Positions 2,859 to 58,421 of a DNA stretch of 64,000 nucleotides are shown in pieces. This stretch comes from Cordylochernes scorpioides. Taxonomy: Eukaryota; Arthropoda; Arachnida; Pseudoscorpiones; Chernetidae. Each line of letters starts with the position of its first letter. Position 1 is the first letter of the stretch. The stretch lies in NCBI GenBank assembly GCA_030710605.1, contig CP092869.1:13213295-13277294 (forward strand). Reading direction: 5' to 3'. The position numbers and the translations under genes are program-made. The notes under the pieces were generated by a model, which was given only the letters and a program-made list of their open reading frames with translations, was not told the DNA's origin and searched no databases.

Positions 2859-4367
2859 ATGGAATCTTATGAAGAAAATAAAGAACAAATGGATTCTCTT
2901 CAAAACGAATTACCTCGTTTTCAGCATATGGCTGAATGTCTGTCACAAGATGTCAATAATGTAAGAACAAAACGTGAAGAAGTATTTGTTGCACTCCAGA
3001 AAGAGTTTTCAGATTCCCTGGTTGAACTTCAAGCCAAGAAGAAGGAATATATCGTCTCACTTTCTAACCAGGGTGTTGGAATTGAGAGATGCAACGAAGT
3101 CCTTTCAAGACTCTGGCAGCTTTCACGTATGGAGATTGAACGGATCAAGAAAGAAAGATCTGATCATAAAGAAAGACAACATGTTCTACAAGTTAATCTT
3201 GATAAGAATGATGGACAGAACCGTGGTTCATTTCCTATTGATTCCATTAGACATACCCTCGAACAAACTCTTCAGCAAAAATTTAGCACAACTTCCAAGA
3301 CATTAGAAGAAATCACCACCAAGAACAAGGAATTAGAAGAGAACATAAAGATCTTGGAAGCTGAGAAACGGACATTTCTTAGCGATCGTGAACGCTTGCG
3401 TTCCCAACATCGATCTTTAGAAGAGGAAACTTCAGATTTGGAGAAAATACTCAGAACTCGTCGTCAGTTTGTCGTTCAACAAGAGCGTTCTCTCAAATTT
3501 GAAATGGCCATAAAAATGGAAGCCGAATTTCGAGAAAACCTAGCTAAAGGCGAATTGAATAAATTAAACGATTCCCTTTCGTCGGCCTCGGAATTGACAC
3601 CATCGTCAAAGCTACAGGTAGAAGAAGAGACCAAATTAACAGAAGAGATTAAAGTCCTACAATCTGAGAATGATCTTCTTAACCGAAGAATTCGGAGATT
3701 CGAAAAGGAACGTGCCGATTTCCAGTCCAAGTTAGCAAAGGCCTCATCTGAAATTGATGCAGCTCATGGTCAAATGTACAAGAGCTCCGATCTCGAAGCT
3801 AAGCTGAAGTCCTTGAAAGAAAAAGAAACGAAGAAAGACAAAAAAGTCATTGAGTTACGAGCTAAGTTAAAAGAATTAAGAGAAATAGATGTTCTTTCCC
3901 AAACGCTTTTACATGATAACAGAAAGCTTCATGAAGAACTTGAAAATCGAGAAACAAGACTCTTCAAGCTTCTTAGAGATAATCACGATCTCGAAATAAA
4001 ATTAGAGAAACAAAAAGCAATTCTTGAATCCAAAGAATCTGAATTGAAGAACATCAGCACCGACCAACATGGTGAAAAAATTCTTCTCCACGAGAAATGG
4101 CGAAAGATCCAAATGAGATTCAATTCTACTCTAGATGAACTTAAGAATGGACTCGATGAGCCATCCTTCCAGCTCTCTAGCATCATAGCCAAGCACAAAG
4201 CCCTTCACAGCTGCCTCAGGGCTAACATGAATTCCTTAATTGATGATTTTACCATCCAGTTTAACGAAGCGTCCTCCCAGCTCGTTGAAGAACGGAACAA
4301 AACGGCCCATCTGGAAATGTCCATCGAGGAAATGAAATCCAAGTTAAATATATCAAGCGGTTCTTAA
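2859..4367 (+). CDS. intronless coiled-coil protein, unknown function
   Basis: This is the only long open frame here without transposon features: 502 residues from an ATG in a good context (caaaATGg). The protein is very rich in Lys, Glu, Leu and Gln. Heptad-like coiled-coil segments occupy roughly residues 1-65 and 130-430, split by a Gly/Asn/Ser-containing break near 118-125 and a Ser-rich hinge near 240-250. I see no signal peptide, membrane segment or catalytic motif. The C-terminal 70 residues are less regular. The frame has no intron, and an AATAAA lies 260 bp downstream near 4630. No family was recognised; a cytoskeletal, centrosomal or testis-type coiled-coil protein, or a retrocopy, would fit. 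The flanks are repeats and give no functional clue. I am fairly sure it is coding and unsure what it does. Confidence 0.6.
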   Translation: MESYEENKEQMDSLQNELPRFQHMAECLSQDVNNVRTKREEVFVALQKEFSDSLVELQAKKKEYIVSLSNQGVGIERCNEVLSRLWQLSRMEIERIKKERSDHKERQHVLQVNLDKNDGQNRGSFPIDSIRHTLEQTLQQKFSTTSKTLEEITTKNKELEENIKILEAEKRTFLSDRERLRSQHRSLEEETSDLEKILRTRRQFVVQQERSLKFEMAIKMEAEFRENLAKGELNKLNDSLSSASELTPSSKLQVEEETKLTEEIKVLQSENDLLNRRIRRFEKERADFQSKLAKASSEIDAAHGQMYKSSDLEAKLKSLKEKETKKDKKVIELRAKLKELREIDVLSQTLLHDNRKLHEELENRETRLFKLLRDNHDLEIKLEKQKAILESKESELKNISTDQHGEKILLHEKWRKIQMRFNSTLDELKNGLDEPSFQLSSIIAKHKALHSCLRANMNSLIDDFTIQFNEASSQLVEERNKTAHLEMSIEEMKSKLNISSGS

Positions 4368-7330: not shown

Positions 7331-7744
7331 ATATACCACTCCTCCTTAATAAAGGTAAGGTATTGAACGCTTCACGATTTTGTAAGTCATTCTTAAGCAG
7401 GGGTCATGTTAATCTTCTCTATATCGTTCCTATTGTAGTAGTTGTATCTCCGAACAAGCGTATTGAAAGGTATTGAAGGAAGGGTGTTCCATGTTCCCAA
7501 TGGAGAGTTTCAAGTTTAAATTGGATCGTAGGTCTCATGGGAACCGGCTGGATAAGTGTAGCAGCTATCTTATCTCAGCGGCTTTCCTCCGGGAACACCT
7601 TGATTGTTTCCCGTCCTGCTGCTGTAACAGAAACTGCAGGTCCTCGTGACACTGTGTGACACTTCTCTTCACCACCCAGGTTGTCACAATTCCTATGTAT
7701 ATTATACCACACACACACATAGCTTTAGTTTAATTTACTAATAT

Positions 7745-8090
7745 ATATTTGTTATGAAAACATATTTTGCGGAAGAACTTTGCTCGATGCAATACCTTGA
7801 AATTATATGTATGTACCTCTACAGACCTATAAGCTTATGCCCATAGTTCACTAAACACCCCCGAGCTGTCTTCCATAGAAAATACAGGGTATATTCCAAA
7901 ACCAATCCAATACAATAATAGAGCGGTCTAGAGATTAATTTGGCGAAACCGATGAGAGGTTTCACTACTGATGAGCCATGCCCTCTCACTAAATAACTCA
8001 TATCATTGCAGTAAGGTCTGTAGCGATAATATTTAATGATATTTAAAAGAAACGCATTGCCAGTAAATTTATTTGTGTAAAACTGTAACA
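7745..8090 (+). mobile_element. S1 ribozyme element, subfamily 2
   Basis: Copy of the S1 repeat, with AGCGGT at 7922, GGCGAAACC at 7942 and CTGATGAGCC at 7968. The 3' part is the sequence that forms the 81-bp satellite at 47830-60745. One stem III position has changed (ACCGAT in place of ACCGCT), so cleavage is probably weakened. Confidence 0.7.
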
Positions 8091-9687: not shown

Positions 9688-10130
9688 GAGAATATTACGC
9701 GTCTAAAATAGTTCCGTAATTTGATAACAGATGGCGCGCTAGTGCATCATAATATAATTGTTCGAATAAAAGACACAAATCGATATTTGCGGAAGAGCGA
9801 TTGCTCGAAGCATATTATATATTTATAATTATATGTAATTCTGTTGTCCTAAAAGCTTATTTCCATAGTTCATCTAAAATACCCATTCGAAGAGACAAGA
9901 ATCAGTATCACTATAAAAGGAAGTTCCAAAAATGCAATATAACAGCGGTATGGTAGATTAAACTGGCGAAACCGCTGGGAGGGTTCACCACTGATGAGCC
10001 AGGCCCTCCCTTTAATTTTTCCATTGCAGTAAGGGCAGTAGAAATTGCTTTATTTTAAAAAAGAATATTACGCGTCTAAAATAGTTTCGTAATTTGATAA
10101 CAGATGGCGCGCTAGTACATCGTAATGTAA
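9688..10130 (+). mobile_element. S1 ribozyme element, partial tandem dimer
   Basis: The segment AATATTACGCGTCTAAAATA occurs at 9691 and again at 10064, and ATGGCGCGCTAGT at 9731 and 10104. This gives a head-to-tail unit of 373 bp. One complete S1 ribozyme motif lies between them. Tandem units of this size resemble animal retrozymes, which move through multimeric or circular RNA. Confidence 0.75.
9944..10010 (+). ncRNA. hammerhead-like ribozyme with rearranged strand order (S1)
   Basis: Three segments carry all hammerhead core positions. Segment a is AGCGGU-A-UGGUAGA (stem III 3', H17, stem I 5') at 9944-9957. Segment c is CUGGC-GAA-ACCGCU (stem II 3', GAA, stem III 5') at 9963-9976. Segment b is UUCACCA-CUGAUGA-GCCAG (stem I 3', core, stem II 5') at 9984-10002. 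Stem III has 6 bp, stem II 5 bp and stem I 6 of 7 bp. The linear order is a-c-b, whereas known types are cyclic permutations of a-b-c. A further 7-bp pair GGGAGGG/CCCUCCC brackets segment b. Activity is inferred, not shown. Confidence 0.7.
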
Positions 10131-10473
10131 TATAAATTTATATTAATAAAATTAAAATGTGTTGGGGGGAGGTATATGTATGTACCCCGCATATGTTTAC
10201 ATACCATATTAGACCTCTATCTAGGTGAAACGTTGACACATTCTAGAATTATATTTAGAAATCAGTTTTTCAGTTTCTTCTTCGGAATATTCAAATCAGC
10301 ATGATAACGCCCGCTCAGTAAATTAACATAATAATATAAGATATAATAGTTCCATCTATATGTATAAAATTAAACTATTAAAGCATTGTTTTTAAATTAC
10401 TTCTTACATTGATGATAAAGTATTTGGAGATTTGATGAACCTTCCCAGTAGTTTCACCACACCTCTATACTAT

Positions 10474-10939
10474 TTAAACAAGGTAAAATCCTCTGGAGTA
10501 ACTTGGTAAAGAAAACATTCAAGACAAAAAGGATGAGTTTCTTTTTATGAACATGCGTTCGAGCTTTCGGGCATAATGTCGCCCTTCAACAGGAATAAAA
10601 CTACAAATAGAATCAAGATACGTCTATATATATACAGGTGATTAGCATAAACAAGAAAACTATTATTTTTAGAGAGATAAAATTTAAGTTTTATGTATGA
10701 TATACAAAACAGTAACGCCCCACATGATTACTGTTTTGTATATCATACATAAAACTTAAATTTTATCTCTCTAAAAATAATAGTTTTCTTGTTTATGCTA
10801 ATCACCTGTATATATATAGACGTATCTTGATTCTATTTATAGTTTTATTCCTGTTGAAGGGCGACATTATGCCCGAAAGCTCGAACGCATGTTCATAAAA
10901 AGAAACTCATCCTCTTTGTCTTGAATGTTTTCTTTACCA
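10474..10939. mobile_element. fold-back Penelope-like element with 13-bp target duplication
   Basis: Arms of about 220 bp (10504-10724 and 10737-10940) are inverted around a 12-base centre. The whole insert lies between two copies of ACCTCTATACTAT (10461-10473 and 10940-10952). Each arm carries a hammerhead-like motif, CUGUUGA-stem-GCCCGAAAGCUC, like that of the Penelope pair at 54586-58421 but with core A6 changed to U. It is best read as a 5'-truncated head-to-head Penelope insertion without coding sequence. Confidence 0.75.
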
Positions 10940-10954
10940 ACCTCTATACTATAT

Positions 10955-13274: not shown

Positions 13275-13860
13275 GTCTTATAAAGATATAAAAGTCTTGA
13301 AAGGAAGTCGATTTGACTCAATACCTGAAATAAAGGAGAGAATACGAAGAATATTTTGAAAATCCTGAAATATTAGGATTTTCAGAGGTGTTTTGACATC
13401 TGGAAAAAAATGGAACAAGTGTATAGATAGTGACGGTGATTATTTTGAGAAATTTTAAATAAAACTTTACTATGATGCACTAGCGCGTCATCTGATATCA
13501 AAATTCGAAACTATTTTAAAGGCGTAAGATTATTTTTGAAATTAAACAATTTCTCTACTGCCCTTACTGCAATGGAAAAAATTAATGGGAGGGCCTGGCT
13601 CATCAGTGGTGAACCCTCCCAGCGGTTTCGCCAGTTTAATCTACCATACCGCTGTTATATTGCATTTTTGGAACTTCCTTTTATAGTGATACTGTTGATA
13701 GACTCTTGGAATGGGTATTTTAGATGAACTATGGACATGAGCTTTGAGGACAGTAGAATTACATACATTTATAAATATATACTTTACTATACTTTTGTAT
13801 TTCTTTAAATATTTAGCTATCTGGAAATTATCGATCACAATATGTATAATGAATGAAGAC
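13275..13860 (+). pseudogene. mariner 3' fragment split by an S1 insertion
   Basis: Positions 13285-13473 match the C-terminal coding end and 3' flank of the mariner at 39370-39560, including the segment encoding GTSV and DYFEKF. The match resumes at 13791 (ACTTTTGTATTTC, then CTGGAAATTATCGATCACA). The intervening 317 bp is an S1 element. The fragment has no catalytic domain. Confidence 0.75.
13474..13790 (-). mobile_element. S1 ribozyme element with defined ends and 10-bp target duplication
   Basis: ACTTTACTAT occurs at 13464-13473 and 13791-13800. The empty site is seen in the mariner copy at 39546-39560, where the flanks are contiguous, so the insert is exactly 317 bp. On the minus strand it contains the complete S1 motif (AGCGGU-A-UGGU, CUGGC-GAA-ACCGCU, ACCA-CUGAUGA-GCCAG). 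It has no terminal inverted repeats and no open frame. Confidence 0.85.
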
Positions 13861-13867
13861 ATTAAGA

Positions 13868-14190
13868 CGCGTATTATATATACCAATTTTACACAAATAA
13901 ATTTACTGGCAATGCGCTTCTTTTAAATATCATCAAATATTATCTCTACAGACCTTACTGCAATGATATGAGTTATTGAATGAGAGGGCTTGGCTCATCA
14001 GTAGTGAACCTTCTCAGCGGTTTCGCCAAATTAATTTCTAGACCGCTCTACTATTGTATTGGATCGGTTTGAAATATACCCTGTATTTTCTATGGAAGAT
14101 AGAAATATGAATCCTGAATAGAGATAATATTTGATGATATTTAAAAGAAACACATTGCCAGTAAATTTATTCGTGTAAAATTTTAACGAT
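13868..14190 (-). mobile_element. S1 ribozyme element, subfamily 2
   Basis: Minus-strand copy with AGCGGU-C-UAG, UUGGC-GAA-ACCGCU and CUA-CUGAUGA-GCCAA. Compared with subfamily 1, stem I has changed from UGG/CCA to UAG/CUA and stem II from CUGGC/GCCAG to UUGGC/GCCAA. Both changes keep the pairing. Confidence 0.75.
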
Positions 14191-14784
14191 TGATGACAAT
14201 TAAATTTACTTTACCAATATATACCAATAACCATCCAATGAAATATGTGGAAATAATGAGGTAGAGGAAGGTGAATTCAGTTGTCATGAAAGAAATGAGG
14301 TGACAGCATGTACAGTACCTGTCATCTCATTGTAAAGCCAACCAACCTTCATCTATCATGTCGAAGACGACTTGTCAACTAAGCTACCCTTGACATTCGC
14401 AAGACATCTCTGACCCCATTCTACAGCTGGTGACAAATCTCTTTTTAAAAGACGATCAATAATGTTAAATGTTTTTTTGTGAGAATCCATTTTTTTATAT
14501 ATACCATCGCGTACAAGAATGTCTTATCCTTTTGTAGGTATTGTCTGGAGGTGTTTGACTTTTGTGAATGGGGTTCTAAAAAACACATTTATTTCCCTAT
14601 ACAAAAGAAAGAAAGATAGTTATGAAAAATGATTTTATAAATACCTCTATGACTGATTACTATTGTCATATTTTGAAAAAGATATCAAAATTACGTTTCT
14701 ATTTGTATATACGGTATGCAAATTTTATTCAGAATATTGATTTTTAGATATGAAGAAAGATAAATCAATCAGAGTAACTATTCG
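14191..14784. other. no gene seen
   Basis: AT-rich sequence without recognised repeats, RNA genes or coding potential. Confidence 0.4.
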
Positions 14785-15275
14785 TGAAAGTAAAACGACA
14801 CTTGAAGTTACACCGCATGAATTTCTTTCCAATGAAAAATCAAAACCTATTTCAAGGTGAAATATTGACTATTTCTAACCTTTTTGGATGAGGTATGAAA
14901 GGGTGAATTATGAAGAGTAATGATGAACGGAAAAATAAAGGGATGGGAATCGAACCCACAATGTTCCGATTACCGGGCAGATGCCATGTCCACTAGGCTA
15001 CCCTGGACGTATTTTTCCGTTCATAAATAATACATAAAGTAACTTATAATACAATAGCCTAGTGGACATGGCATCTGCCCGGTAAGCGGAACATTGTGGG
15101 TTCGATTCCCATCCCTGGACACTTTTATTTTTCCGTTCATCATTACTCTTCATAATTCGCCCTTTCATACCTCATCCAAAAAGGTTAGAAATAGTCAATA
15201 TTCCACCTTGAAATAGGTTTTGATTTTCATTGGAAAGAAACTCATGCGGTGTAACTTCAAGTGTTGTTTTACCAT
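14785..15275. repeat. tRNA-like palindrome, 220-bp inverted arms
   Basis: Two inverted copies (14785-15008 and 15055-15275) face each other across a 46-bp spacer. Each arm contains a tRNA-like sequence with acceptor GTCCAGG/CCTGGAC, T-arm GTGGG-TTCGATT-CCCAT and anticodon arm TCTGC-CCGGTAA-GCGGA. The anticodon would be GGT (Thr). Position 33 is C rather than U, and the left copy has an anticodon-stem mismatch. A tRNA-derived fold-back repeat is more likely than two working tRNA genes. Confidence 0.65.
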
Positions 15276-16545: not shown

Positions 16546-16861
16546 TAGTAAAAATGGTAATTTTGCAAATGAAAACTGTCCTTTGTAGAGAGGTGTTCTC
16601 TAGCGTGAGTGTCCTCTCATGGAGGTTCAACTGTAGTAGTGATTATAATAATAGGAAATTAGTAATAAATTATTATTATTATCATCGACATCATAGTCCG
16701 TGGTCAAAACTCCTTCCAGATCTGGTCGTGTCTTGTCCATTCTCCATGGAAAAGTGTAATTTAAAACTGATAAAGAAACTTTTTCACAGGTGGATCATCG
16801 AATTGCTTAATTGAGAAAAGGGACTTTATATCTGTTACAAGGCATCATAGATCCCTCTGTA

Positions 16862-17083
16862 TGTATTGCATGTATTAGCTCTAGAATTACCACAGTTATC
16901 CAAGTAAATGTGTACGATCTAAGGAACCATAACTGATTTAATGAGCCATTCGCGGTTTCGCCTTGCTAGGGCGTGTACTTAGACATGCATGGCTTAATAT
17001 TTGAGACAAGACTACTGGCAGGATCAACCAGGTATCCTTCGTTAGTCCCCGCCGCGAGACGCCCTCGGGCCGCCTCGCCGGGG
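16862..17083 (-). rRNA. transposed 5' fragment of 18S rRNA with part of the ETS
   Basis: On the minus strand the 18S 5' end starts at 17034 (TACCTGGTTGATCCTGCCAG). It continues through AGCCATGCATGTCTAAGTAC to GAGCTAATACATGC near 16868, about 165 nt. It is preceded by about 50 bp of GC-rich spacer, probably external transcribed spacer. The 222-bp insert lies between perfect 13-bp copies of AGATCCCTCTGTA (16849-16861 and 17084-17096). It is an inserted pre-rRNA or rDNA fragment, not a functional rRNA gene. Confidence 0.9.
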
Positions 17084-25884: not shown

Positions 25885-26200
25885 TGGGAGTCGGTGGAAG
25901 GATGGTCTAAACCGTTAGTTTTCGACCGCTACGACCCGGGTTCGATTCCCGCATTGGGCACTTTTTTATGTTTAAAAAAATGCTCCAATGGCCTTCGAGT
26001 CTTGCAAAAGTCCAACCCCACCAGAGAGTTCAAATAACCAAAAGGGGCTCTGGCATATTTGTAAGTGCAAAGTCAAACTGCTTTTCACATGTGTGTATAT
26101 GTGGTGCACTTAGAGTAAAAGTAGTCGCCAACTTCTACCCACCATGATTATCATGGCCTGTACCACGTGTACTAGGGATAAGCAAAAAAAAACGTTTATT
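25885..26200 (+). repeat. tRNA-derived SINE, full length
   Basis: tRNA-like head with TGGTCTAAACCG and GGTTCGATTCC, then the linker CATTGGGCACTTTTT and the body to CTAGGGATAAG. Confidence 0.85.
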
Positions 26201-26224
26201 TTTTAACAATCAAAACAAACCTAC

Positions 26225-26475
26225 TATCCTTACTGAGAATTAAATATAGTGACAGGGCTTGGCATATCAGTGGTGTACCCTTCCAGTAATTTCGTCAATT
26301 TAATCTACCAGACCGCTTCTTAGAATTCTAAATACTGTATTGGACGATTCTGATTATATATGATACACTGAAGGGTGGAATATTAGTTATTTTAGCAAAC
26401 TATGGACATAAACTTTCAGAACAGTAGAATTACATACAAATATTTGCATCAAGCAATGCTTTTTTAGAGCAATAA
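26225..26475 (-). mobile_element. S1 element, decayed
   Basis: Minus-strand copy with AGCGGU-C-UGGU and ACCA-CUGAU, but the core reads CUGAUAU and stems II and III are damaged. It should be inactive. Confidence 0.6.
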
Positions 26476-33028: not shown

Positions 33029-33470
33029 ACGAAAGTTTTTCGAATGTTTTTATAACAGCTTGACCTATTTGTCTGAAATTTCTAGCAGCTGAAGTATTAA
33101 GTGATCTGAGTCGATGCCATTTGCACAGAAAACATCAGGAATATGTTTTAATGCGTTTTAAATGAGATAAATGACTTTTTAGAATAAATAATTATTGAAG
33201 ATAGAGGTTGCCTGGCTGGTATTCATTGTTCTTAAAGTAAGAGTCACTTCGGCCAGTAGAGTTTTGTCGAAACATCGAAAAACAAGTAACTCAACTAACC
33301 GAAGGGTATCTTACTTCAAGAACAACAATCATATTTAATAAAATATATTATATAACTTAATATATCTCTCAACCTGAATATACAAATATTATTATATAAC
33401 AAATGAAAACATTTAGACGCGAATGTTTCTTTCACAAATAAATCAAACTTCTACTGTCCTTACTGTGATG
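33029..33470. repeat. Penelope-type terminal debris
   Basis: Positions 33190-33310 contain TGCCTGGCTGGTATTCA and CGAAACATCGAAAAAC, an inverted relative of 17097-17225. No gene was seen. Confidence 0.35.
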
Positions 33471-33712
33471 AAAAAATATTGGGAGGGCTTGGCTTATCAG
33501 TGGTGAACCTTCCCAGCGGTTTCGCTAATTCAATCCACCAGAACGCTTCTTTAGAACTCTAATACTGTATTGGATCATTCTGCTTTTATATGCTACACTG
33601 AAGGATGGAATCTTAGAAATGGTATTTAAGTAAACTATGGACATAAGCTTTTAGAGGACAGTAGAATTACATTTAAATATTTGTATCGAGCAATGCTCTT
33701 CCACCAATTACG
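33471..33712 (-). mobile_element. S1 element, core-mutated
   Basis: Minus strand AGCGUU-C-UGGUGGA, GAA-ACCGCU and UUCACCA-CUGAUAA. Stem I is a perfect 7 bp here, but G8 of the core has become A, which should abolish cleavage. Confidence 0.65.
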
Positions 33713-34005
33713 ACTTTGATAGGGATGATCTTATAGGGCGACTCTCGCCTGAAAACAAGACTATTCTTGTCCTCAAGTCTGTCATCGAGCATATTGGGAA
33801 CTCCACGACTGTCAGGAGCCTGTTAAAACTCATAAAGGCTTTAAACTCCTGATAAGATTCAGACGTCCCTTCAGAGTAGGCTCCGTCTGTTGTAAATATT
33901 TTCTCTTTATTTTAAATCTAATTAACTTTACTATTATAACTCTCCTTGAGTGTAGATATTGACGAGACGTCAATAAAGTTGTCTTAATTGTCAATTGTTA
34001 CAAAC
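33713..34005 (+). pseudogene. 5'-truncated LINE-type copy
   Basis: The frame ends in LSPENKTILV...LIKALNS and is followed by the shared 3' UTR (GACGAGACGTCAATAAAG). It joins directly onto the S1 copy. Confidence 0.55.
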
Positions 34006-38324: not shown

Positions 38325-39614
38325 TACAAGGTGTGTGTGTGTGATCAATAATTTCCAGAAATGAGACTGGATCACGTAAAATATTAAAAATAATGAAATA
38401 TTTCTATAAGGACCTTATAGATAAAACATTTATCAACACGTAGAAAAAATAATTGATCACACAGACGCACGCACCCATGTTTTTTCGAATTTATAAGCTT
38501 GAGTATATCAGAACATTTTCTAACTTCAGTATGAACTGTATTGAAAAACAACGAGTCTGCATAGAGTTTTGCTTTAAATGAGGGAAAACAGCTTCCGAAT
38601 CATTTCAAATGTTGAAGCAGGCTTTTAAAGAAGATTCCCTATCACAATCGAGGACATTTGAATGGTTTGCACAATTTAAAGCTGGTCGAGAAAGCGTCAA
38701 GGATGATCTACACACTGGCAGACCTTTATCGATAAGAAACCCCGAAAATGCACTCAAAATCAAGTCATCGATCAAAGAAAACCCAAGAATAACTATCAGA
38801 GAGTTATCAGAAGACTTGGATATCTCTTTTGGAACATGCCAAACCATCATAAAGATTGATCTGCCTCTTAAACGAACCCGGCTAAATTTGTGGCACATCT
38901 CTTAACGAATGAGCAGAAAGAGCATCGCAAAGAAACGTGCAAAAACATGGTCGAAATGTTTAATTCTGATCCCCATTGGCTCGAAAATTTAATCATAGGA
39001 GATGAAACATGGGTGTACGGATATGATCCCGAGACTAAGAGGCAATCAAGCCAGTGGCTAGAGCCTGAAGAACCAAGATTCAAGAAAGCAAGGATGATCA
39101 AATCGAAGCTTAAGTGTCTTCTTATCACTTTCTTTGATGTAAAGGGATTGGTTCACTATGAATTCGTGCCCGAGGGTCAGACCATTAATAGACATTACTA
39201 TATTGATGTATTGCGACGTTTAAGGGAGGCTGTGCGTCAGAAACGACCCGAAAAATGGCATCAGAAAAATTGGTTCTTGCATCATGACAACGCACGGCCA
39301 CATACGGCCGTCACTGTACAACTCTATTTGGCTAAACACGGAATTGCTTTACTTTCCTTTACCCTAAAAGTAAAAGGGTCTTAAAAGGACGTCGATTTGA
39401 CTCAATACCTGAAATAAAGGAGAATACGAAGAATGTTTTGAAAAGCCTGAAAGATGAGGATTTTCAGAGGTGTTTTAATATCTGGAAAAAAAATGGAACA
39501 AGTGTATAGATAGTAACGGTGACTATTTTGAGAAATTTAAAATAAAACTTTATTATACTTTTGTATTTTAAGAAATATTTCGCATTCCTGGAAATTATTG
39601 ATCACACTATGTAT
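38325..39614 (+). mobile_element. mariner element, degraded
   Basis: Terminal inverted repeats carry GTGATCAATAATTTCCAG near 38341 and its complement near 39588. A broken transposase lies between. The 3' part matches the split fragment at 13285-13860. Confidence 0.8.
38531..39530 (+). pseudogene. mariner transposase, broken
   Basis: The frame begins at ATG 38531 (MNCIEKQRVCIEFC), has a TGA near 38579, and continues through the helix-turn-helix region (TFEWFAQFKAGRESV). A +1 frameshift near 38885 leads into the catalytic part: GDETWVYGYDPETK (first Asp) and LHHDNARPHTA (second Asp). The segment with the third Asp of the D,D34D triad is deleted near 39360. The C-terminal RFDSIPEIKE...DYFEKF resumes downstream. 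It is inactive by at least three lesions. Confidence 0.85.
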
Positions 39615-40428
39615 ATATCCTATTTAGTCTATTATATGATATCAATTTAAAAGCCTATAACACACAACATATTGCTAATAATCACTACAAATTGAATTTT
39701 TCCGTTCTTAAAACACGAAAAAATCTGTTTTAATAGCCTTTAAAATCATTCATACACATAAATATAGTTTTATAATAACTATTTTCACACATAAAGTCGT
39801 ACAAAGACCAAGTTGAAAGAAAAAGGATTTCTAAAAGAGACAAAGTAACCAGAGAATTCCCATTATCACAGTATTTACAGTTTGGTCGTCTAGAAAACGT
39901 CCCAGTTTTTACAAAATGGAATTGTGAAAAATCGATCCTATGCAAGATGAACTTAATTTTCGATTATGGAATATTTTTATTCTACCTTTACAGTGCTTAT
40001 ACGTGAAGGTCGACTGTAAAAAAAGTCCACGTAAAAATACTCTAACCACACACACACAATAACCGTCAATTTTTATTCACTTACATTTAATAGATCCTCC
40101 CATCAAAATTTCCATCCATACATTTTAATTTACAAAATGATTACGATACATAAAATAGCTTTTAGACTATTTATCCTAAAACCGTGTGATATTAACATAT
40201 ATTTTATAAATTTCTATCCATGATAAAATTGTGAAAAAAGTTTTAAAATTACAAATATATTCTCACAATGAGTATCTTTTTTATTTAAAAAAAAAGGCTA
40301 GCTTTCAAGTGTTAATCGCTCTTCAACGGGTTTAATAAAACATCGACTATATCTTAAAATAAATATTTACAAAACATACGCGCGCAGCGTGGATATTTAC
40401 AACTGTTTTTTTTAATTGGTATGTAATA
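39615..40428. other. no gene seen
   Basis: AT-rich. Positions 40295-40330 hold a degraded minus-strand hammerhead-like motif (GUUGAAGAGCGAUUAACAC then UUGAAAGCUAGCC). Confidence 0.35.
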
Positions 40429-42816: not shown

Positions 42817-43083
42817 ATTTTACACACATAAATTTACTGGCAATGCGTTTCTTTTAAATATCATCAAATATTATCTCTACAGACCTTACTGCAATGATAT
42901 AGTTATTGAATGAGAGGGCTTGGCTCATTAGTAGTGAACTCTCTCAAACCGCTGAGAGGGTTCACTACTGATGAGCCAAGCCCTCTCATTCAATAACTCA
43001 TATCATTGCAGTAAGGTCTGTAGAGATAATATTTGATGATATTTAAAAGAAGCGCATTGCCAGTAAATTTATGTGTGTAAAAT
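42817..43083. mobile_element. head-to-head S1 palindrome, subfamily 2
   Basis: Two inverted S1 3' parts meet at about 42946. The plus half begins inside segment c (AAACCGCTGAGAGGG) and the minus half begins at about CTGAGAGAG on its own strand. Arms are about 130 bp and almost identical. Confidence 0.75.
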
Positions 43084-43859: not shown

Positions 43860-44170
43860 TAACCAAGATAATTAGTTATGATGCACTAGCGCCCAATCTG
43901 TTATTATATTGTATGTAATTCTACTGCCCTCAAAGCTTATGTCCATAGTTCATCTAAAATACCCATTCCAATAGTCTAGCAACAGTATCACTATAAAAGG
44001 AAGATCGAAAAATGCAATATAACAGCGGTATGGTAGATTAAACTGGCGAAACCGCTGGGAGGGTTTACCACTGATGAGCCCAGGCACTCCCATTAATTTT
44101 TTCCATCTCAGTAAGGGCAGTAGAAATTGTTTAATTTCAAAAAGAATTTTACGCGTCTAAAATAGTTTCG
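43860..44170 (+). mobile_element. S1 ribozyme element, subfamily 1
   Basis: Complete motif with AGCGGT-A-TGGT, CTGGC-GAA-ACCGCT and ACCA-CTGATGA-GCC. An extra C after GCC disturbs stem II. A short inverted piece of the element's own 3' end precedes it at 43878-43908. Confidence 0.7.
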
Positions 44171-44542
44171 AATTTTCATAAGATAGTCTTATAGATTTAA
44201 ATGATAAGGGAAAATAAAACAAAAAATATAAATATAAGTGATAAAAAAAACACCTAAATCTTTATTAAGAACTTTCGTCTTAATTGTACTAAAATGATTC
44301 AAATGGAAACCAGAATAGAAAGAAGTTAAAGAATGATGTCCTACCTTGAATATAATATTTGCATATTAGCAAATGCTACTCAGCACCAATAGCCTTGATT
44401 ATGCAAATATGATTAGAAAACTGAAGGAAAGAGTGTCAATTGATAAACTAAATAAAGTGATGTTTTCTTTGATGGCTTATTTTACGTAAGATTTGGGGAG
44501 AATTCGATTTATCAATCAAATAACGATAAATAGAATTATCTA
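44171..44542. other. no gene seen
   Basis: AT-rich, nothing recognised. Confidence 0.35.
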
Positions 44543-46740: not shown

Positions 46741-46866
46741 CAAACTCAGCGCCATATAACGTCAATAGATTTAAGTTAAAAAATATATTTTTTGCGCTTA
46801 TATTAAATGGAAAGGGAGAAAAAAAATGAGAAAAAGTATGATAATTAAACTACAGAGTATGTATTA

Positions 46867-47168
46867 CGATGCAATAGCACGCCATCTGTTATCAAATTAC
46901 GAAGCTATTTTAGACGCGTAATATTCTTTTTAAAATAAAACAATTTCTACTGCCCTTACTGCAATGTAAAAATTAAAGGGAGGGCCTGGCTCATCAGTGG
47001 TGAACCCTCCCAGCGTTTAATGGTAGATTAAACTGGCGAAACCGCTGGGAGGGTTCACCACTGATGAGCCAGGCCCTCCCTTTAATTTTTCCATTGCAGT
47101 AAGGGCAGTAGAAATTGCTTTATTTTAAAAAGAATATTACGCGTCTAAAATAGCTTCGTAATTTGATT
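46867..47168. mobile_element. head-to-head S1 palindrome with 13-bp target duplication
   Basis: AGAGTATGTATTA occurs at 46854-46866 and 47169-47181, so the inverted pair was inserted as one unit. The plus half starts with TGGTAGATT at 47031, the base after the predicted S1 cleavage site. The minus half starts at CGCTGGGAGGG. Both halves keep the 3' part of S1. Confidence 0.85.
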
Positions 47169-47181
47169 AGAGTATGTATTA

Positions 47182-47619
47182 ATTATTATTTTATATATTG
47201 TTATTTCCATTTATTTATTTTCATTGAATTTCTGACAATTACAGTGATTAACCTCTTCTATGTTGATTGTAGATATTGCCTAACATTTCTTTCTTTTGTA
47301 CACAGCTCTCTGTTCTCTTTTATTTCTTTCTCCTTGTTAATATCATATGACTATTCTTCACGGCCTAAAATTATTGTAAATAAATATATATAGACAAATG
47401 TAAAGACATACATGTATGACAGTACAAGTGTCCCTAGGGGGACATAGCACTTTAAATTGAAATAAATAAAAATAAATAAATAAAAACCTCTTAAATTTAT
47501 AAATTTAATTTCCATAGATCGATAAAATTTGTAAAAAAAAAATTACTGGCAATGTGTTTCTTTTCAATAATATCATCATATATTATCTCTAACCAATATA
47601 TACTTCTTATGAAACCATA
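47182..47619. other. T-rich stretch
   Basis: No gene. AAGTGTCCCTAGGGGGACAT near 47426 resembles a LINE 3' end also seen near 15915. Confidence 0.35.
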
Positions 47620-48512
47620 TTTGCGAAAGAGCTTTGCTCGATGCAATTCCTTGAAATTATATGTATGTACCTCTACAGATCATTGAGCTTATGTCCATAG
47701 TTCACTAAACACGCCTAAGCTGCCTTCCATAGAAAATACAGGGTATATTCCAAACCAATCCAATACAATAGTAGAGCGATCTAGAGATTAATTTGGCGAA
47801 ACTGCTGAGAGAGTTCACCTCTGATAATCCAAGCTCTCATTCAATAACTTATATCATTGCAGTAAGGTCTTTAGAGATAATATTTGATGATATTATTGAA
47901 AATAAACAAATTGCCACTCATTCAATAACTTATATCATTGCAGTAAGGTCTGTAGAGATAATATTTGATGATATTATTGAAAATAAACACATTGCCACTC
48001 ATTCAATAACTTATATCATTGCAGTAAGGTCTGTAGAGATAATATTTGATGATATTATTGAAAATAAACAAATTGCCACTCATTCAATAACTTATATCAT
48101 TGCAGTAAGGTCTGTAGAGATAATATTTGATGATATTATTGAAAATAAACACATTGCCACTCATTCAATAACTTATATCATTGCAGTAAGGTCTGTAGAG
48201 ATAATATTTGATGATATTATTGAAAATAAACAAATTGCCACTCATTCAATAACTTATATCATTGCAGTAAGGTCTGTAGAGATAATATTTGATGATATTA
48301 TTGAAAATAAACACATTGCCACTCATTCAATAACTTATATCATTGCAGTAAGGTCTGTAGAGATAATATTTGATGATATTATTGAAAATAAACAAATTGC
48401 CACTCATTCAATAACTTATATCATTGCAGTAAGGTCTGTAGAGATAATATTTGATGATATTATTGAAAATAAACAAATTGCCACTCATTCAATAACTTAT
48501 ATCATTGCAGTA
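47620..48512 (+). repeat. S1 element grading into the 81-bp satellite, part 1
   Basis: An S1 subfamily 2 copy (47620-47880, with a damaged ribozyme) continues directly into tandem 81-bp units of its own 3' region (ATTCAATAACTTATATCATT...). Units alternate AAACAAATTGCC and AAACACATTGCC, giving a 162-bp dimer period. Since 81 is divisible by three and lacks stops, an artefactual 253-codon frame spans it. Confidence 0.9.
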
Positions 48513-48667
48513 GTGATTCGCCGCCAGGTGGCTACGAGAGACGGCCGCACTTAACATCGCTCCCAGCTAAGTACTTTTTATTTCTCTAAACTAGTAATTA
48601 TTTTAATTTTTTTTCATATAATATACATTGTTAGACTGTCATTCTCTTATAAAGCATTTAGAAAAAG

Positions 48668-49624
48668 ATGAAAATTCTGTCTGGCGCCAACATTACTTTT
48701 GTCTTGTATTTGCTAATTTGCATACAAACGCCAAACTTTCTGTTACAAAAATATGCTAATTTTAGGATGAAAATCTATAGGAAATTATTGCACAATATTT
48801 ACTGCTCCCCTCTACCTTCGTCAAAACTTTCCCAAATGTTTCTTGCTAGGGTTTTAGCTATTTTGCTTATAATTGGAGGTATTGAACTCAATCCTGGACC
48901 TAAGAGACAAACAACTCTGACACCCGCGATTTCACCGGCAACACACGAATCGGCAGACAGTGATTTAAAGGTGCTGATATTGAATTTGTCAACTGAAATG
49001 AAAGGTATGCGAGAAAGACTAGATTCGGGATTGGTGCAAATCGAAAGACGTTTGGAAGAATGGGATAAGAGGGCTCAAGAGATGGAGTCGAAAATAATTC
49101 AAAGTATGGAGGCACAATGCAACACCGATAAAAGGGTTGACGGCAACACTCTGCAACTGCGCGAACTGGAGGCTAGAATGGAATACACAGAGGCGAGACT
49201 TCGCGAACAGAATCTTATTTTCTATGGCATTGTAAGAGAGGAAAATGAAAACCCATTCGACTGTAACCGCAAGGTCAAAAGCATAATCACTGATAAAATG
49301 GGATTCACCGATGAAGTCAAAATAACAAAATGCCATAGGCTATCCCGAGCTGAGAATTCACCAGTACTGGCGGTAATACCGGACCATGAAGAAAGAGCAA
49401 GAGTGCTTTCTAATGCAATTAAACTCAAAGGGTCAAAAATATTTATCAGTAAAGACTATAGCCTCAAAGTAAGAGACCAAAGAAGAATTCTAATTGCGAA
49501 GAGAAAGGAACTGTTTGGGAGGGGTATAAAAGCTAAATTAAGGGACAACAAACTCATCATAGATGATACGACTTATAGTGCGGTGAACGGTGAGATCGTG
49601 AATTCTAGGGGAAATACCATATAG
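48668..49624 (+). CDS. LINE ORF1 protein with N-terminal 2A-like motif
   Basis: 318 residues. A hydrophobic N-terminal part (residues about 8-20 and 57-70) leads to GGIELNPGP (residues 70-78), the consensus of 2A ribosome-skipping peptides except that the usual Asp is Gly. Skipping would release a 77-residue leader. A coiled coil follows (about 100-175; ERRLEEWDKRAQEMESKI). An RNA-binding ORF1 core comes next (NLIFYGIVREE, then KMGFTDEVKITKCHRL and KGSKIFISKDYS), like the RRM-type ORF1 proteins of LINEs. It should form RNPs with the element RNA. It ends in a single TAG that is in frame with ORF2. Confidence 0.85.
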   Translation: MKILSGANITFVLYLLICIQTPNFLLQKYANFRMKIYRKLLHNIYCSPLPSSKLSQMFLARVLAILLIIGGIELNPGPKRQTTLTPAISPATHESADSDLKVLILNLSTEMKGMRERLDSGLVQIERRLEEWDKRAQEMESKIIQSMEAQCNTDKRVDGNTLQLRELEARMEYTEARLREQNLIFYGIVREENENPFDCNRKVKSIITDKMGFTDEVKITKCHRLSRAENSPVLAVIPDHEERARVLSNAIKLKGSKIFISKDYSLKVRDQRRILIAKRKELFGRGIKAKLRDNKLIIDDTTYSAVNGEIVNSRGNTI

Positions 49625-52600
49625 CAACAAGAAACGGTGATCACGGTTCCGAAAAGAAATGTTAAGCCACATTTTGATAAGATTGAAAAAATATGTAAAA
49701 ATAAAGATTCAAGTGCTGGAGTTGTACCATTTGTAAATACTTTAAATAATGAAATATGCAAATTCGCTCCTAAAAATATTTCAAAGCAAAATCATGCTAA
49801 GGAAGCGAATACTAGTCACAAGATTGTAAATGGAAGAATTAAATATGGCGATAATAAAATACATATAAATAAAGATTCACAAAAAAGTTTTAAAACTATA
49901 AGCATTAAAAATCCAAAAGTTACGGTAGACACAATAATATGCTGGAATATAAATGGACTTTTTAGGTTGCTCTCTGTTTTTCCACTTCTCGAGTACATTA
50001 AAAATTACGAGATTTTCGCTATACTTGAAACATGGTGTTCAAACCTCACAAATATAACATTAAAGGATTTCCAAATTTTTGAACAGCCGGCAACTAAGAC
50101 CACAGGAAGGGGAAGGGGATCAGGAGGAATAATTGTGGGCGTCAAAAAAGGGGGGCATTACAGATTGCACAGTACAGAAAAGGATAACATCTGGATATCG
50201 ATTTTTTATCACAAAACATAGGAACCGACAAACCCACCACCTGCTTGATATTTGTATATCTCCCTCCAAACGAACTGTACCAGAACAACTTAGTTAGATT
50301 AACTAAATATATGGAAAAACAGATAACTGACGGGAAAGAACTAATTCTGATTGGGGATTTAAATATTAGAACTGGAGGGCTCGGGGGACTGTATAATCCA
50401 ACAAATCTCCAACTCTCTTTAGTTTCCGAAAGAAAAGCAAGAGATCTAATAATTTCACCACTGGCTGAAGGACTTCTTGAGTTTCTCGAGGACAATTCGC
50501 TGACAATAATCAACGGACGATCAACAGGAGACAGAGAGGGTGACTTTACATATGTTTCGGAGAGAGGCTCATCAACTATTGATTACTGCATAGTTTCCCA
50601 AGGAATACTGGAAAAAATATCAGACTTCAGGATAGAAACCCAGATGTACTCAGATCACCTTCCTCTTATCCTGAAGTTAACAGTCCAAAACACCTATGAA
50701 AACAAATCTAAGGGAGAAGAATATGGTGTTACGAGATACAGATGGACAGCTGGGGGAATTAAGACATTTAAACAGGAATTAAAGGAATTGCAAGTAGTAA
50801 AAATATCAAATCTCGATAGCTCCGTAAATACTTTCACTCAAAGAATTACCGAGGCAATGTCAACATCAGGAATAATGTACTCAACTAAGAGTGCCACCGG
50901 AAAATCTAAGCCATGGTTTGACAAAAACTGTTACGATATGAAAAAGCTAACAAAAGAAAGTCTGAAGGAATTCCGTAGAACCAACAGGAAGGAAGACCTT
51001 GAAAGCTATGCTCTCCATAGAAAGAAATATCTCGGTTTATTAGATGATAAAAGAAGGAAATATATTCAGGAAAAACAAGAAATATTGAGAAATATTAAAG
51101 ATTCAAAGTCCTTTTGGAAGACCATTGCGCTATTTAAAGGAGCAACACAAATTCAAGGAGAAATTACTGTACAGGAATGGCACGAATTTTATTGCGAATT
51201 AATGAGTATTGAGGAAAAAGAGAAGATCTGTAATATAGAAGTGAGGATCTCGCCGAGCGACCCAATACTTGATCCAGAGATAACTTCTGAAGAGATAGGC
51301 AGGGCAATCAGAGATTTGAAAAATAACAAGGCAAGTGGACCTGATGACATCCCCAATGAAATAATAAAAGTACTCCCAGACTCATACATGGGTTTATTAG
51401 AACAATTTTACAATAGAGCTCTGATAATGGGACATTATCCTACAATATGGACTAAATCGATCATACATCCAATCTTTAAAAGCGGTGACAAAGACAACCC
51501 TTCAAATTACCGTGGTATAGCACTGATAAGTAATTTTTCGAAACTTTTTACAACAATACTAAGATCAAGACTGAATGAATGGGTAGAAAGAAGAAACGTC
51601 ATTCCAGAAAATCAGGCGGTTTCCGAAGGGGCCGATCGTGTGTGGACCTGATATTCACATTGACCTCTCTAATACAACTTTCACTGAGGAAAAAGAGAGG
51701 AAAATTATATGTATTTTTTGTTGATTTGAGAAAAGCATTTGACACAGTTCCTCACTCATTACTCTGGAAGAAATTAACCAATCTGGGCGTAAGCTATCAA
51801 TTTATACATGCAATTAGAAATTACTACGAACAGGCGACTGTGGCAGTCAGATGGAGGGGTTCAATTACAGAAAATATTAAGATACATTCGGGCGTTTTAC
51901 AAGGAGAGCCACTATCGCCATTACTTTTTATATTATTCATGACGGACCTGATTAAAATGTATGACAACTCAGATCTGACGAGTGTATACCTTCCGGAATT
52001 TGGTGATGTTCACCTGCTGATGTACGCAGATGATATTGCTATTATAGGGGAGTCGAGGGTAAACCTCCAAAAAAAGATTAATTTATTGAAGGAATATCTT
52101 GGTGTGAACGAAATGACACTGAACGAGTCCAAATCGAAGGTTATGGTTTTTCGCAATGGTGGTAAACCCTCAAGAGAAGATAGATGGTACTGGAATGGTA
52201 AACCTCTGATGGTAACAAGAAGATATATCTACTTGGGATACCCTCTGGTCAGTACAACTAAAACCACTCAAGCCGCAAACTTTTTCAAAGGAAAAGCACT
52301 TGCGGCAATAAATGCTACAACCCCATTATTGGCGAAATCAAAAATTAATTCACTAAACTCTGCAATGAAACTGTTTGACTCAATTGTGATGGCTGTTTTG
52401 ATGTATGCTGCTCCAATTTGGGCAACAGAGTATAAAGATTTATTAGACCATATACAAGATACATTTATTCGTAGGTTTTTGAATTTGCCTAGATATACAC
52501 CAGGATACATAATAAGACTAGAAACAGGCCGCGTCTCATTAATAATAACAGCTCTGAAATTGACCTTGAAATATTGGCTGAGGGTGCTGAGTATGGATAC

Positions 52601-53225
52601 AAATAGACTGCCTCGAATTTGTTTAACTAGAATGAGGCAATTATCCTGTGCTACAGGTGCGCCCATCGGTTTTATAAAACAATTAAGCAATTTACTTAAT
52701 AATAATGGATCCTCGTGGCTTACTTATTGTAATGATCCTGACTCACTAAGGAATGCTATCCCTGGAATATTAAGAACTGCGATAGAGCAAACAATACAAA
52801 ACGACCTAACAAGAATAACCCAATCAAAGTTATATTCCCACTATAGAGACATATATACAACCTTTACCACCGAAGAATACTTCTTAACTGAACTCCCTTT
52901 TCCTATCATCAGATTAATTGCACAATTTAGAACCCTTTCAATTTTTTTCAGAGAACACCATTTGATTTTATTGAGGCGTGAAGACCTGAAATGCACTTTC
53001 TGTGGATCAGGAATAACAACGGAGATGCTGCATTACTTATTTGACTGTGCTGCTCTGTCTGAGGAAAGACGAAAATTAAATGATAAAACGGGGCAACTTT
53101 GTCCTTCATTCCCGGCACTGATTAATGAAATATCAAGGAATAGGTATATAGCGATGGCGATATTTGGATTCCACGGGACTATATCCCGGAAAAAGGCCTC
53201 ACAGTGTTCTCCCTATCCCTTGTGA
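49625..53225 (+). pseudogene. LINE ORF2: endonuclease plus reverse transcriptase, frameshifted
   Basis: ORF2 continues in the ORF1 frame directly after the TAG, and no ATG precedes the endonuclease. Endonuclease motifs are CWNINGL, ILETW, LIGDLNIRTG, STIDYCIVS and YSDHLPLIL. RT motifs are NNKASGPDDIPNE, NPSNYRGIALIS, FVDLRKAFDTV (Asp of motif A), GVLQGEPLSPLL and MYADDIAII (catalytic Asp pair). A C-terminal C-X2-C...H-X4-C motif (CTFCGS...HYLFDC) follows. Two single-base frame breaks interrupt it, in a T6 run near 50202-50207 and near 51617. They could be mutations or assembly errors. The gene otherwise looks young. Confidence 0.85.
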
Positions 53226-53287: not shown

Positions 53288-54585
53288 TATATCATTGCAG
53301 TAAGGTCTGTAGAGATAATATTTGATGATATTATTGAAAATAAACACTTTTCACTCATACAATAACTTATATCATTGCAGTAAGGTCTGTAGAGATAATA
53401 TTTGATGATATTATTGAAAAGAAACATATTGCCACTCATAAATAACTTATATCATTGCAGTAAGGTCTGTAGAGATAATATTTGATGATATTATTGAAAA
53501 TAAACAAATTGCCACTCATTCAATAACTTATATCATTGCAGTAAGGTCTGTAGAGATAATATTTGATGATATTATTGAAAAAAAAACACATTTCACTCAT
53601 ACAATAACTTATATCATTGCAGTAAGGTCTGTAGAGATAATATTTGATGATATTATTGAAAATAAACACATTTCACTCATACAATAACTTATATCATTGC
53701 AGTAAGGTCTGTAGAGATAATATTTGATGATATTATTGAAAATAAACAAATTGCCACTCATTCAATAACTTATATCATTGCAGTAAGGTATGTAGAGATA
53801 ATATTTGATGATATTATTGAAAATAAACAAATTTCCACTCATTCAATAACTTATATCATTGCAGTAAGGTCTGTAGAGATAATATCTGATGATATTATTG
53901 AAAATAAACACATTTCACTCATACAATAACTTATATCATTGCAGTAAGGTCTGTAGAGATAATATTTGATGATATTATTGAAAAGAAACATATTGCCACT
54001 CATTCAATAACTTATATCATTGCAGTAAGGTCTGTAGAGATAATATTTGATGATATTATTGAAAATAAACAAATTGCCACTCATTCAATAACTTATATCA
54101 TTGCAGTAAGGTCTGTAGAGATAATATTTGATGATATTATTGAAAATAAACACATTTCACTCATACAATAACTTATATCATTGCAGTAAGGTCTGTAGAG
54201 ATAATATTTGATGATATTATTGAAAATAAGCAAATTGCCACTCAATCAATAACTTATATCATTACAGTAAGGATTGTAGAGATAATATTTGATGATATTA
54301 TTGAAAATAAACAAATTGCCACTCATTCAATAACTTATATCATTGCAGTAAGGATTGTAGAGATAATATTTGATGATATTATTGAAAATAAACAAATTGC
54401 CACTCATTCAATAACTTATATCATTACAGTAAGGTCTGTAGAGATAATATTTGATGATATTATTAAAAATAAACAAATTGCCACTCATTCAATAACTTAT
54501 ATCATTGCAGTAAGGTCTGTAGAGATAATATTTGATGATATTATTGAAAATAAACATATTGCCACTCATTCAATAACTTATATCA
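53288..54585 (+). repeat. 81-bp satellite, part 2
   Basis: About 16 units continuing the array after the LINE. Variants CACATTTCACTCATAC and CAAATTGCCACTCATTC alternate irregularly. Confidence 0.95.
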
Positions 54586-54658
54586 GACATGATAAGCCAC
54601 GTTTGGAATATAAAAAGAGAGATTAAGAGGAACGTGGTAAGTTTCTTTATTAAGCAGT

Positions 54659-54697
54659 ATACGAGCTTTCGGACGTCAGCCGTCCTTCATCAGGTAT
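54659..54697 (-). ncRNA. type I hammerhead ribozyme, Penelope, intact core
   Basis: On the minus strand stem I is AUAC/GUAU, the core is CUGAUGA (54693-54687), stem II is GGACG/CGUCC with loop GCUGA, and GAAA follows. Stem III is the palindrome AGCU, with C17 at 54663 and cleavage after it. A two-base-pair stem III implies that it acts mainly as a dimer, as reported for Penelope hammerheads. Confidence 0.8.
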
Positions 54698-54971
54698 TGA
54701 CATGAATGAGAAGGAGATGCTATATTTATAAGCGACAGTTTAGCATAAAAAATATTAAACAAGAAATAAAAGATTAAAAAGATTTGAGATTTGCATGCCA
54801 GTAATAAAAATATTTAAAAGTGTACAATATATAGATTTAAGAAAATCTGCATACCTAGGATGAAGGGAAAAAGGCAGAAAACTAGAGGCGAAGACAAAAG
54901 CAAGAATAAAAATAAAAATAAGAATATAAACGAGAATATAAAAAACAGCGGAATAAAGATAAAGTTAAAAG

Positions 54972-56436: not shown

Positions 56437-56471
56437 GTTGTTATGATGAAGGCGGAGGAATATGAGAAAAA

Positions 56472-58055: not shown

Positions 58056-58330
58056 CTTTTAACTTTATCTTTATTCCGCTGTTTTTTATATTCTCGTTTA
58101 TATTCTTATTTTTATTTTTATTCTTGCTTTTGTCTTCGCCTCTAGTTTTCTGCCTTTTTCCCTTCATCCTAGGTATGCAGATTTTCTTAAATCTATATAT
58201 TGTACACTTTTAAATATTTTTATTACTGGCATGCAAATCTCAAATCTTTTTAATCTTTTATTTCTTGTTTAATATTTTTTTATGCTAAACTGTCGCTTAT
58301 AAATATAGCATCTCCTTCTCATTCATGTCA

Positions 58331-58369
58331 ATACCTGATAAAGGACGGCTGACGTCCGAAAGCTCGTAT
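58331..58369 (+). ncRNA. Penelope hammerhead with G8A core mutation
   Basis: Same structure as 54659-54697, but the core reads CUGAUAA. G8 (58340) has become A. G8 is essential for hammerhead catalysis, so this copy should not cleave. Confidence 0.75.
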
Positions 58370-58421
58370 ACTGCTTAATAAAGAAACTTACCACGTTCCT
58401 CTTAATCTCTCTTTTTAATAT

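Follow-up and report, generated by a model that had tools for sequence, protein, structure and literature searches.

The six possible orders of the hammerhead blocks S (cleavage site), G (GAAA) and C (CUGAUGA) were named by Eckert, Friedrich, Weinberg and Weinberg in 2023 (PMC10085705). In the available text of that paper, type SGC comprises 583 predicted sequences that were found by covariation; their sources are almost all metatranscriptomes and none is the genome of a known organism. Five examples that were expected to work were cleaved at the predicted site, type-SGC monomers cleaved in cis in vitro with kobs values of 0.007 to 0.19 per min (Table 1), and disruptive and compensatory mutations in SGC-3 indicated that all four helices are needed. 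A literature search, with preprints and most subscription papers outside its scope, returned no other paper on natural type-SGC ribozymes, as judged from titles and the opening lines of abstracts. Animal retrozymes are described, in the accessible sections of PMC7229834, as small elements without coding capacity that occur in tandem, carry type I hammerheads and are transcribed, cut to unit length and circularised, and enzymes of Penelope-like elements or LINEs have been proposed as their copiers. Penelope-like elements themselves are characterized in the consulted portion of PMC11167929 as tandem and as nicking AT-rich DNA.

A hammerhead-type motif of the block order S-G-C is present at positions 9944-10010 of the 64,000 nucleotides of the pseudoscorpion Cordylochernes scorpioides that were analyzed (hereafter termed the window). 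It contains every hammerhead core base and three stems, and its parts are as follows.

9944 to 9954, forward strand: block S, with the 5' strand of stem III (AGCGGU, 9944-9949), H17 (A9950) and the 5' strand of stem I (UGGU, 9951-9954)
9963 to 9976, forward strand: block G, with one strand of stem II (CUGGC, 9963-9967), GAA (9968-9970) and the 3' strand of stem III (ACCGCU, 9971-9976)
9977 to 9983, forward strand: 5' strand of a fourth helix, stem IV (GGGAGGG)
9987 to 10002, forward strand: block C, with the 3' strand of stem I (ACCA, 9987-9990), CUGAUGA (9991-9997) and the other strand of stem II (GCCAG, 9998-10002)
10004 to 10010, forward strand: 3' strand of the fourth helix (CCCUCCC)

The RNA thus reads AGCGGU-A-UGGU, an 8-nt linker, CUGGC-GAA-ACCGCU, GGGAGGG-UUC, ACCA-CUGAUGA-GCCAG, G and CCCUCCC. 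Stem III joins 9944-9949 to 9971-9976, with U16.1 at 9949 and A15.1 at 9971, and stem II joins 9963-9967 to 9998-10002. The hammerhead assignment and the strand order, which had been described as a-c-b in the initial sequence-only reading, are therefore borne out, and cleavage directly 3' of H17 at A9950 stands as a prediction from the sequence. That reading had listed three stems, all of which were recovered, although stem I (9951-9954 with 9987-9990) has four unbroken pairs and not seven: A9955 lies opposite C9986 and is followed by a G.U and an A-U pair. It had overlooked the fourth helix, in which the strand after stem III forms seven pairs with the strand after block C and ties stems I and II together on their outer sides. 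Its statement that no hammerhead of this order had been described was mistaken, as type SGC was published in 2023 (PMC10085705, partial text).

The pseudoknot-free fold of the motif consists of two adjacent hairpins, III (9944-9976, pair probabilities of 0.89-1.0) and IV (9977-10010, 0.98-1.0), with a minimum free energy of -27.1 kcal/mol (z -2.57; 2 of 200 shuffles fold at least as well). One strand of stem I and one of stem II lie in the loop of hairpin III and their partner strands in the loop of hairpin IV, so that the hammerhead would form by a double loop-loop contact.

The occurrence of the motif was compared with chance by a strict descriptor, which specified the core bases, at least three pairs in stem I, at least four in stem II and at least five in stem III, and which was run for all six block orders. 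Three type-SGC sites were detected in the window (9945-10001 on the forward strand, 13596-13652 and 13991-14046 on the reverse strand) and zero sites in any of the five other orders, including the CGS order of the type I hammerhead that is a trait of animal retrozymes. Zero sites were also found in 100 dinucleotide-preserving shuffles, a result that measures rarity and is not a blind test, because the motif and its relatives were already known when the descriptor was drawn up. Inspection by eye ruled out a type II reading of 9944-10010, which leaves no space for stem I. No Rfam family reached its gathering score at the motif, and hits with E values up to 10 were to unrelated bacterial sRNA families only.

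The exact family pattern had no match in prokaryote genome contigs or in viral contigs. Relatives were sought with a looser pattern (GGCGAAAC, gap, CTGATGAGCC), which yielded at least 172 matches in at least 120 stretches of viral contigs. Nearly all of the 172 viral matches listed are type II (154), followed by 16 that do not have a block S, one GCS and one weak SGC match. In type II (GSC) of phage-like contigs, G precedes C at a similar distance, but S lies between G and C. Among prokaryotes at least 118 matches in at least 118 stretches were obtained, and those listed comprise 107 that do not have a block S, seven type II and four weak SGC matches. The five weak SGC matches among the viral and prokaryote matches listed look like chance. 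Several hammerhead pattern matches (four or five each within a few kb) were seen in the IMG/VR contigs L023, L046, L055, L057 and L075.

The carrier of the motif is a non-coding repeat of about 371 bp, which occurs in C. scorpioides in three subfamilies. Among open reading frames (ORFs) of 40 aa or more, the longest in the unit is 51 aa. BLAST picked up twelve arms belonging to this family within the window, including the first copy (copy a), and eight of these hold the whole motif. The copies are given below.

9759 to 10131, forward strand: copy a, a whole unit (u1-u373) with no ORF above 51 aa
9682 to 9758, forward strand: tail of the preceding unit, head-to-tail with copy a (partial tandem)
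13474 to 13781, reverse strand: copy b; ribozyme at 13587-13653, identical to that of copy a; 10-bp target duplication
43904 to 44181, forward strand: copy c; ribozyme at 44024-44091
33394 to 33716, reverse strand: copy f, third subfamily; ribozyme at 33481-33547 with a mutated core (CUGAUAA)
7728 to 8087, forward strand: copy h, second subfamily; ribozyme at 7922-7987; 13-bp target duplication
13885 to 14102, reverse strand: copy g, second subfamily; ribozyme at 13982-14047; inverted tail at 14119-14208; 12-bp target duplication
26196 to 26448, reverse strand: copy j; ribozyme at 26251-26317 with a mutated core (CUGAUAU)
47592 to 47916, forward strand: copy k; ribozyme at 47775-47838 with a mutated core (CUGAUAA); runs into an 81-bp tandem array
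46863 to 47167: head-to-head palindrome of copies e (46863-47018, reverse) and d (47020-47167, forward); 13-bp target duplication; no complete block S
42817 to 43083: head-to-head palindrome of copies l (reverse) and i (forward), second subfamily; 9-bp target duplication; block S missing

A related unfilled site for copy b is present at 39371-39615. Stem I has three to four unbroken pairs in subfamilies 1 and 2. The sequence TATAAAAGG at 9912-9920, about 30 bases 5' of block S of copy a and by eye common to copies b and c, is presumably a TATA-like, promoter-like box; if it is used, transcription would begin beside the ribozyme.

Genome queries with copies a, h and f against the assembly from which the window was taken (2.62 Gb, 24 contigs) returned at least 46, 43 and 40 matches, respectively; the best 40 of 364, 3538 and 2392 unconfirmed first-look candidates were scored for each. 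A profile built from the eight window copies and run on the window and 90 loci marked 159 distinct places, of which 140 cover the full span and represent 82 distinct motifs, while 19 partial places were excluded from the counts. The core (CUGAnGA, GAA, A15.1-U16.1 and an H17 other than G) is intact in 116 of the 140 full-span copies and broken in 24, and H17 of the intact cores is C in 76 and A in 40. The four commonest motifs are found in 27, 15, 10 and 7 copies and each keeps all core bases, which indicates that several lineages spread recently with the ribozyme unchanged. The most frequent is the motif of copy a, in which all 22 pairs form. In 24 of 28 pairwise comparisons the ribozyme is more strongly conserved than the remainder of the unit, with a one-sided p below 0.05 in 16 of them, these pairs not being independent; examples are copies a and h (84% vs 63%) and copies a and b (100% vs 88%). 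No such advantage is seen between copies h and k, h and g, and g and k (all within subfamily 2) or between f and j.

The sequence-only reading had put forward covariation across the genomic copies as a check, and this bore out stems I and II, together with the fourth helix, and failed to do so for stem III. In the eight window copies, 90.8% of 173 pair cells are standard pairs, compared with 36-54% when the partners are slid by 1-3 columns, and changes on both sides occur in 8 cells vs 3.3 in shuffles (0 of 500 as high). In the same copies neither the number of double-change pairs (4; 51 of 500 shuffles as high) nor that of pair types (8 vs 9.0 shuffled; 477 of 500 as high) is unusual, and one of the four double-change pairs hangs on copy k, in which the fourth helix is misaligned. 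Across the 82 motifs, 93.3% of the cells of the 22 pairs are paired and 74 double-change cells were counted vs 28.1 in shuffles (0 of 200 as high). By helix, the observed and shuffled numbers are 24 and 9.0 in stem I, 21 and 6.2 in stem II, and 28 and 11.7 in stem IV. Stem III, with one double-change cell vs 1.1 shuffled, displays no covariation in the 82 motifs; it lies outside the reach of this test because it is nearly invariant. The signal is found mainly in the pairs 9952-9989 (G-C/A-U), 9963-10002 (C-G/U-A) and 9978-10009 (G-C/A-U), and reflects about three inherited subfamily differences, that is, few events repeatedly seen. Slid controls on match columns were 3-72% paired, except for stem I at +3, where 97% pairing is reached via G.U pairs that would use core bases. 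Stem II at +1 was 57% paired on match columns and 93% when gap columns were kept, as most cells then fell on gap columns.

The copies are inserted in several styles. Head-to-tail units are spaced by 371 bp, for example at C24:59114932 and 59115303, and adjacent same-strand copies were present at 11 of the 26 distinct loci of the query with copy a, several of which amount to 1.1-1.3 units. Many copies form head-to-head palindromes with their tails pointing outward. Exact target duplications in the window measure 13 (e/d), 13 (h), 12 (g), 10 (b) and 9 bp (l/i); no flank repeat longer than 6 bp was found for copies a, c and j and none for f, with copy k outside the test. Genome-wide, 40 of 85 elements, among which a few loci look like mutual duplicates, are bordered by identical flank repeats no shorter than 9 bp, vs 7.1% for mispaired flanks. 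Within the inserted unit the predicted cut follows u192 of 373, an internal position that would be expected if circles, and not cut linear RNA, were the usual template. Copy d starts at the equivalent of the predicted cut (9950/9951), with an AGCGGT repeat at the palindrome centre that blurs the exact junction. In the loci and window combined, head-to-head arms end at the predicted cut in 1 of 34 cases in subfamily 1 (copy d itself) and 0 of 30 in subfamily 2, and insertion ends as a sign of cleavage were dropped on these numbers. This scarcity is as compatible with a complete absence of cutting as with a circular template. Head ends immediately downstream of the fourth helix account for 6 of 34 cases in subfamily 1 (u255-261); their reading as reverse transcriptase stops at the folded RNA was set aside, as subfamily 2 has 0 of 30 at 261-270.

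Several other repeats accompany the element in the window. Satellite arrays of 81 bp occupy 47836-48512 (8.4 copies), 53288-54585 (16.1 copies) and 58417-60741 (28.8 copies). Their unit is the stretch just 3' of the second-subfamily ribozyme (u255-335 of copy h), and copy k runs into the first array; since 81 is a multiple of three, the arrays contain long, probably meaningless open frames. A Penelope-like palindrome at 54586-58416 lies inside such an array with a 9-bp target duplication (CTTATATCA). Its arms agree at 1815 of 1828 aligned positions, RVT_1 is found in both ORFs, and the ORF at 56466-58055 matches C. scorpioides proteins with 97% over 55% and 99% over 38% of its length. By eye, the tails of this palindrome contain minimal type I hammerhead-like stretches at 54662-54693 (reverse strand, CTGATGA) and 58335-58366 (forward strand, CTGATAA); the former had no Rfam match at E values up to 1. 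By eye, a further inverted repeat surrounds a Penelope-like tail at 10540-10940, where CCCGAAAGCTCG on one side faces its own reverse complement on the opposite side. Between two 81-bp arrays, 48662-53225 is occupied by a LINE that has Exo_endo_phos_2 and RVT_1 domains and may have inserted into one long array; its first ORF includes GIELNPGP, which we take to be a 2A-like stretch. The ORF at 2862-4364 matched none of 7999 candidates scored in a protein search. The window also contains a full-model match to U6 snRNA (7356-7459, reverse strand), a eukaryotic SSU rRNA fragment (16710-16984, reverse strand) and two tRNA-like matches at 14935-15112, where ARAGORN reported no tRNA.

The motif, its block order, four helices with covariation in three of them, a conserved core, tandem units, palindromic insertions and target duplications are established for this family. 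The family is probably a non-autonomous, retrozyme-like retroelement of about 371 bp that carries a type-SGC hammerhead, cleaves itself, forms circles and is copied in trans; transcription, cleavage, circles and the mobilising enzyme are what we infer. The loops of hairpins III and IV would pair twice, through stems I and II, to create the hammerhead core, with stem IV tying the outer ends of both stems, and, once folded, one RNA molecule should suffice for self-cleavage 3' of A9950. Where a transcript spans tandem units, cleavage at intervals of 371 nt would liberate RNAs of unit length, which a host ligase could close into circles. The circles would then be copied into new sites by a reverse transcriptase acting in trans, with Penelope-like elements as its most plausible providers. 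Head-to-head palindromes and duplications of 9-13 bp are common to the ribozyme element and the Penelope-like element of the window, which speaks against the otherwise identical scenario with a LINE as the mobilising element, as does the available description of published Penelope-like elements as tandem and nicking AT-rich DNA (PMC11167929). A LINE is nevertheless present in the window between arrays of the element's own tail satellite, no shared tail of the ribozyme element with either the LINE or the Penelope-like element has been established, and mobilisation by a LINE is a possible if doubtful variant.

The sequence-only reading had restricted cleavage to multimers: the monomer would not fold productively, and strands a and b of one unit would need strand c of the next. 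Tandem units do exist and the a1-b1-c2 arrangement is free of pseudoknots, so that a nested dimer hammerhead is possible, yet it is not required, because the type-SGC monomers studied in 2023 cleave in cis and depend on a fourth helix (PMC10085705, as far as its text was available), and that helix exists here. The helix covaries in this family and would lack an evident function in a dimer; a multimer-only hammerhead is accordingly judged to be quite improbable. It is also unlikely that the motif is a fossil whose helices hitchhike on the young descendants of a few master elements, with cleavage lost or irrelevant to their spread. Such a reading would accommodate the missing cut signature at insertion ends and the 24 of 140 broken cores, and kinship of copies can mimic covariation, but the retention of all core bases in the four commonest motifs and the preferential conservation of the ribozyme in most of the (non-independent) comparisons argue against it. 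Several copies with inverted tails at both ends and target duplications resemble a DNA-level, MITE-like element, with the tails as its terminal inverted repeats and the ribozyme travelling as a passenger. The inverted arms, however, start at many positions, duplication lengths range between 9 and 15 bp or more, and partial multimers in head-to-tail orientation are frequent, all of which fit reverse transcription better and render a MITE-like element very improbable.

With the self-cleaving, circle-forming retroelement as the preferred reading, the chances are about even that this family is the first in which a non-circularly permuted hammerhead resides on chromosomes in high copy number, and that it represents an animal retrozyme lineage that swapped type I for type SGC, makes circular RNA with it and could be source or descendant of the type-SGC RNAs of metatranscriptomes. 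The strand order itself has been known since 2023, and the setting in many copies on animal chromosomes is what is added (PMC10085705, partial text). Type SGC was published there from environmental RNA with no host genome known in the available text, whereas a named host, three subfamilies, tandems and candidate helpers are present here. A genomic family with a host makes the purpose of permuted hammerheads experimentally approachable, and suggests that retrozyme-like elements need a self-cleaving RNA and not a particular strand order.

Compared with the HRIMA-1/type-SGC variants in the accessible part of PMC10085705, the pseudoscorpion motif has the same S-G-C order, core bases and stems I-III, and in both cases a fourth helix connects stems I and II on their outer flanks and a short linker does so on the other flanks. 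Its stem III runs straight into the fourth helix, as in a few published cases. It differs in its linker, which measures 8 nt vs typically 3 in HRIMA-1, and in a stem I of three to four unbroken pairs in subfamilies 1 and 2, and it is a dispersed repeat in an animal genome, unlike the published examples from metatranscriptomes. Hammerhead-bearing Penelope-like elements, as far as described in the text at hand (PMC11167929), share tandem or partial-tandem copies and AT-rich targets with the pseudoscorpion element, but they encode a reverse transcriptase and an endonuclease, whereas the unit has no ORF above 51 aa, and their minimal type I form differs from its hammerhead. The animal retrozymes resemble the pseudoscorpion element in unit size (about 350-390 bp in mussel vs 371 bp), in a tandem non-coding unit with a hammerhead within, low GC, target duplications of more than 4 bp and a genome shared with Penelope-like elements (Cervera & de la Pena 2020, PMC7229834, partial text). 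They carry type I hammerheads and have been shown as circRNA, while the pseudoscorpion element carries type SGC, is predicted to form circles and, unlike the published retrozymes in that text, prominently forms head-to-head palindromes. Size, tandems, non-coding nature, duplications and company thus fit and the ribozyme type does not, for which reason the element is best described as retrozyme-like and not as a type I retrozyme.
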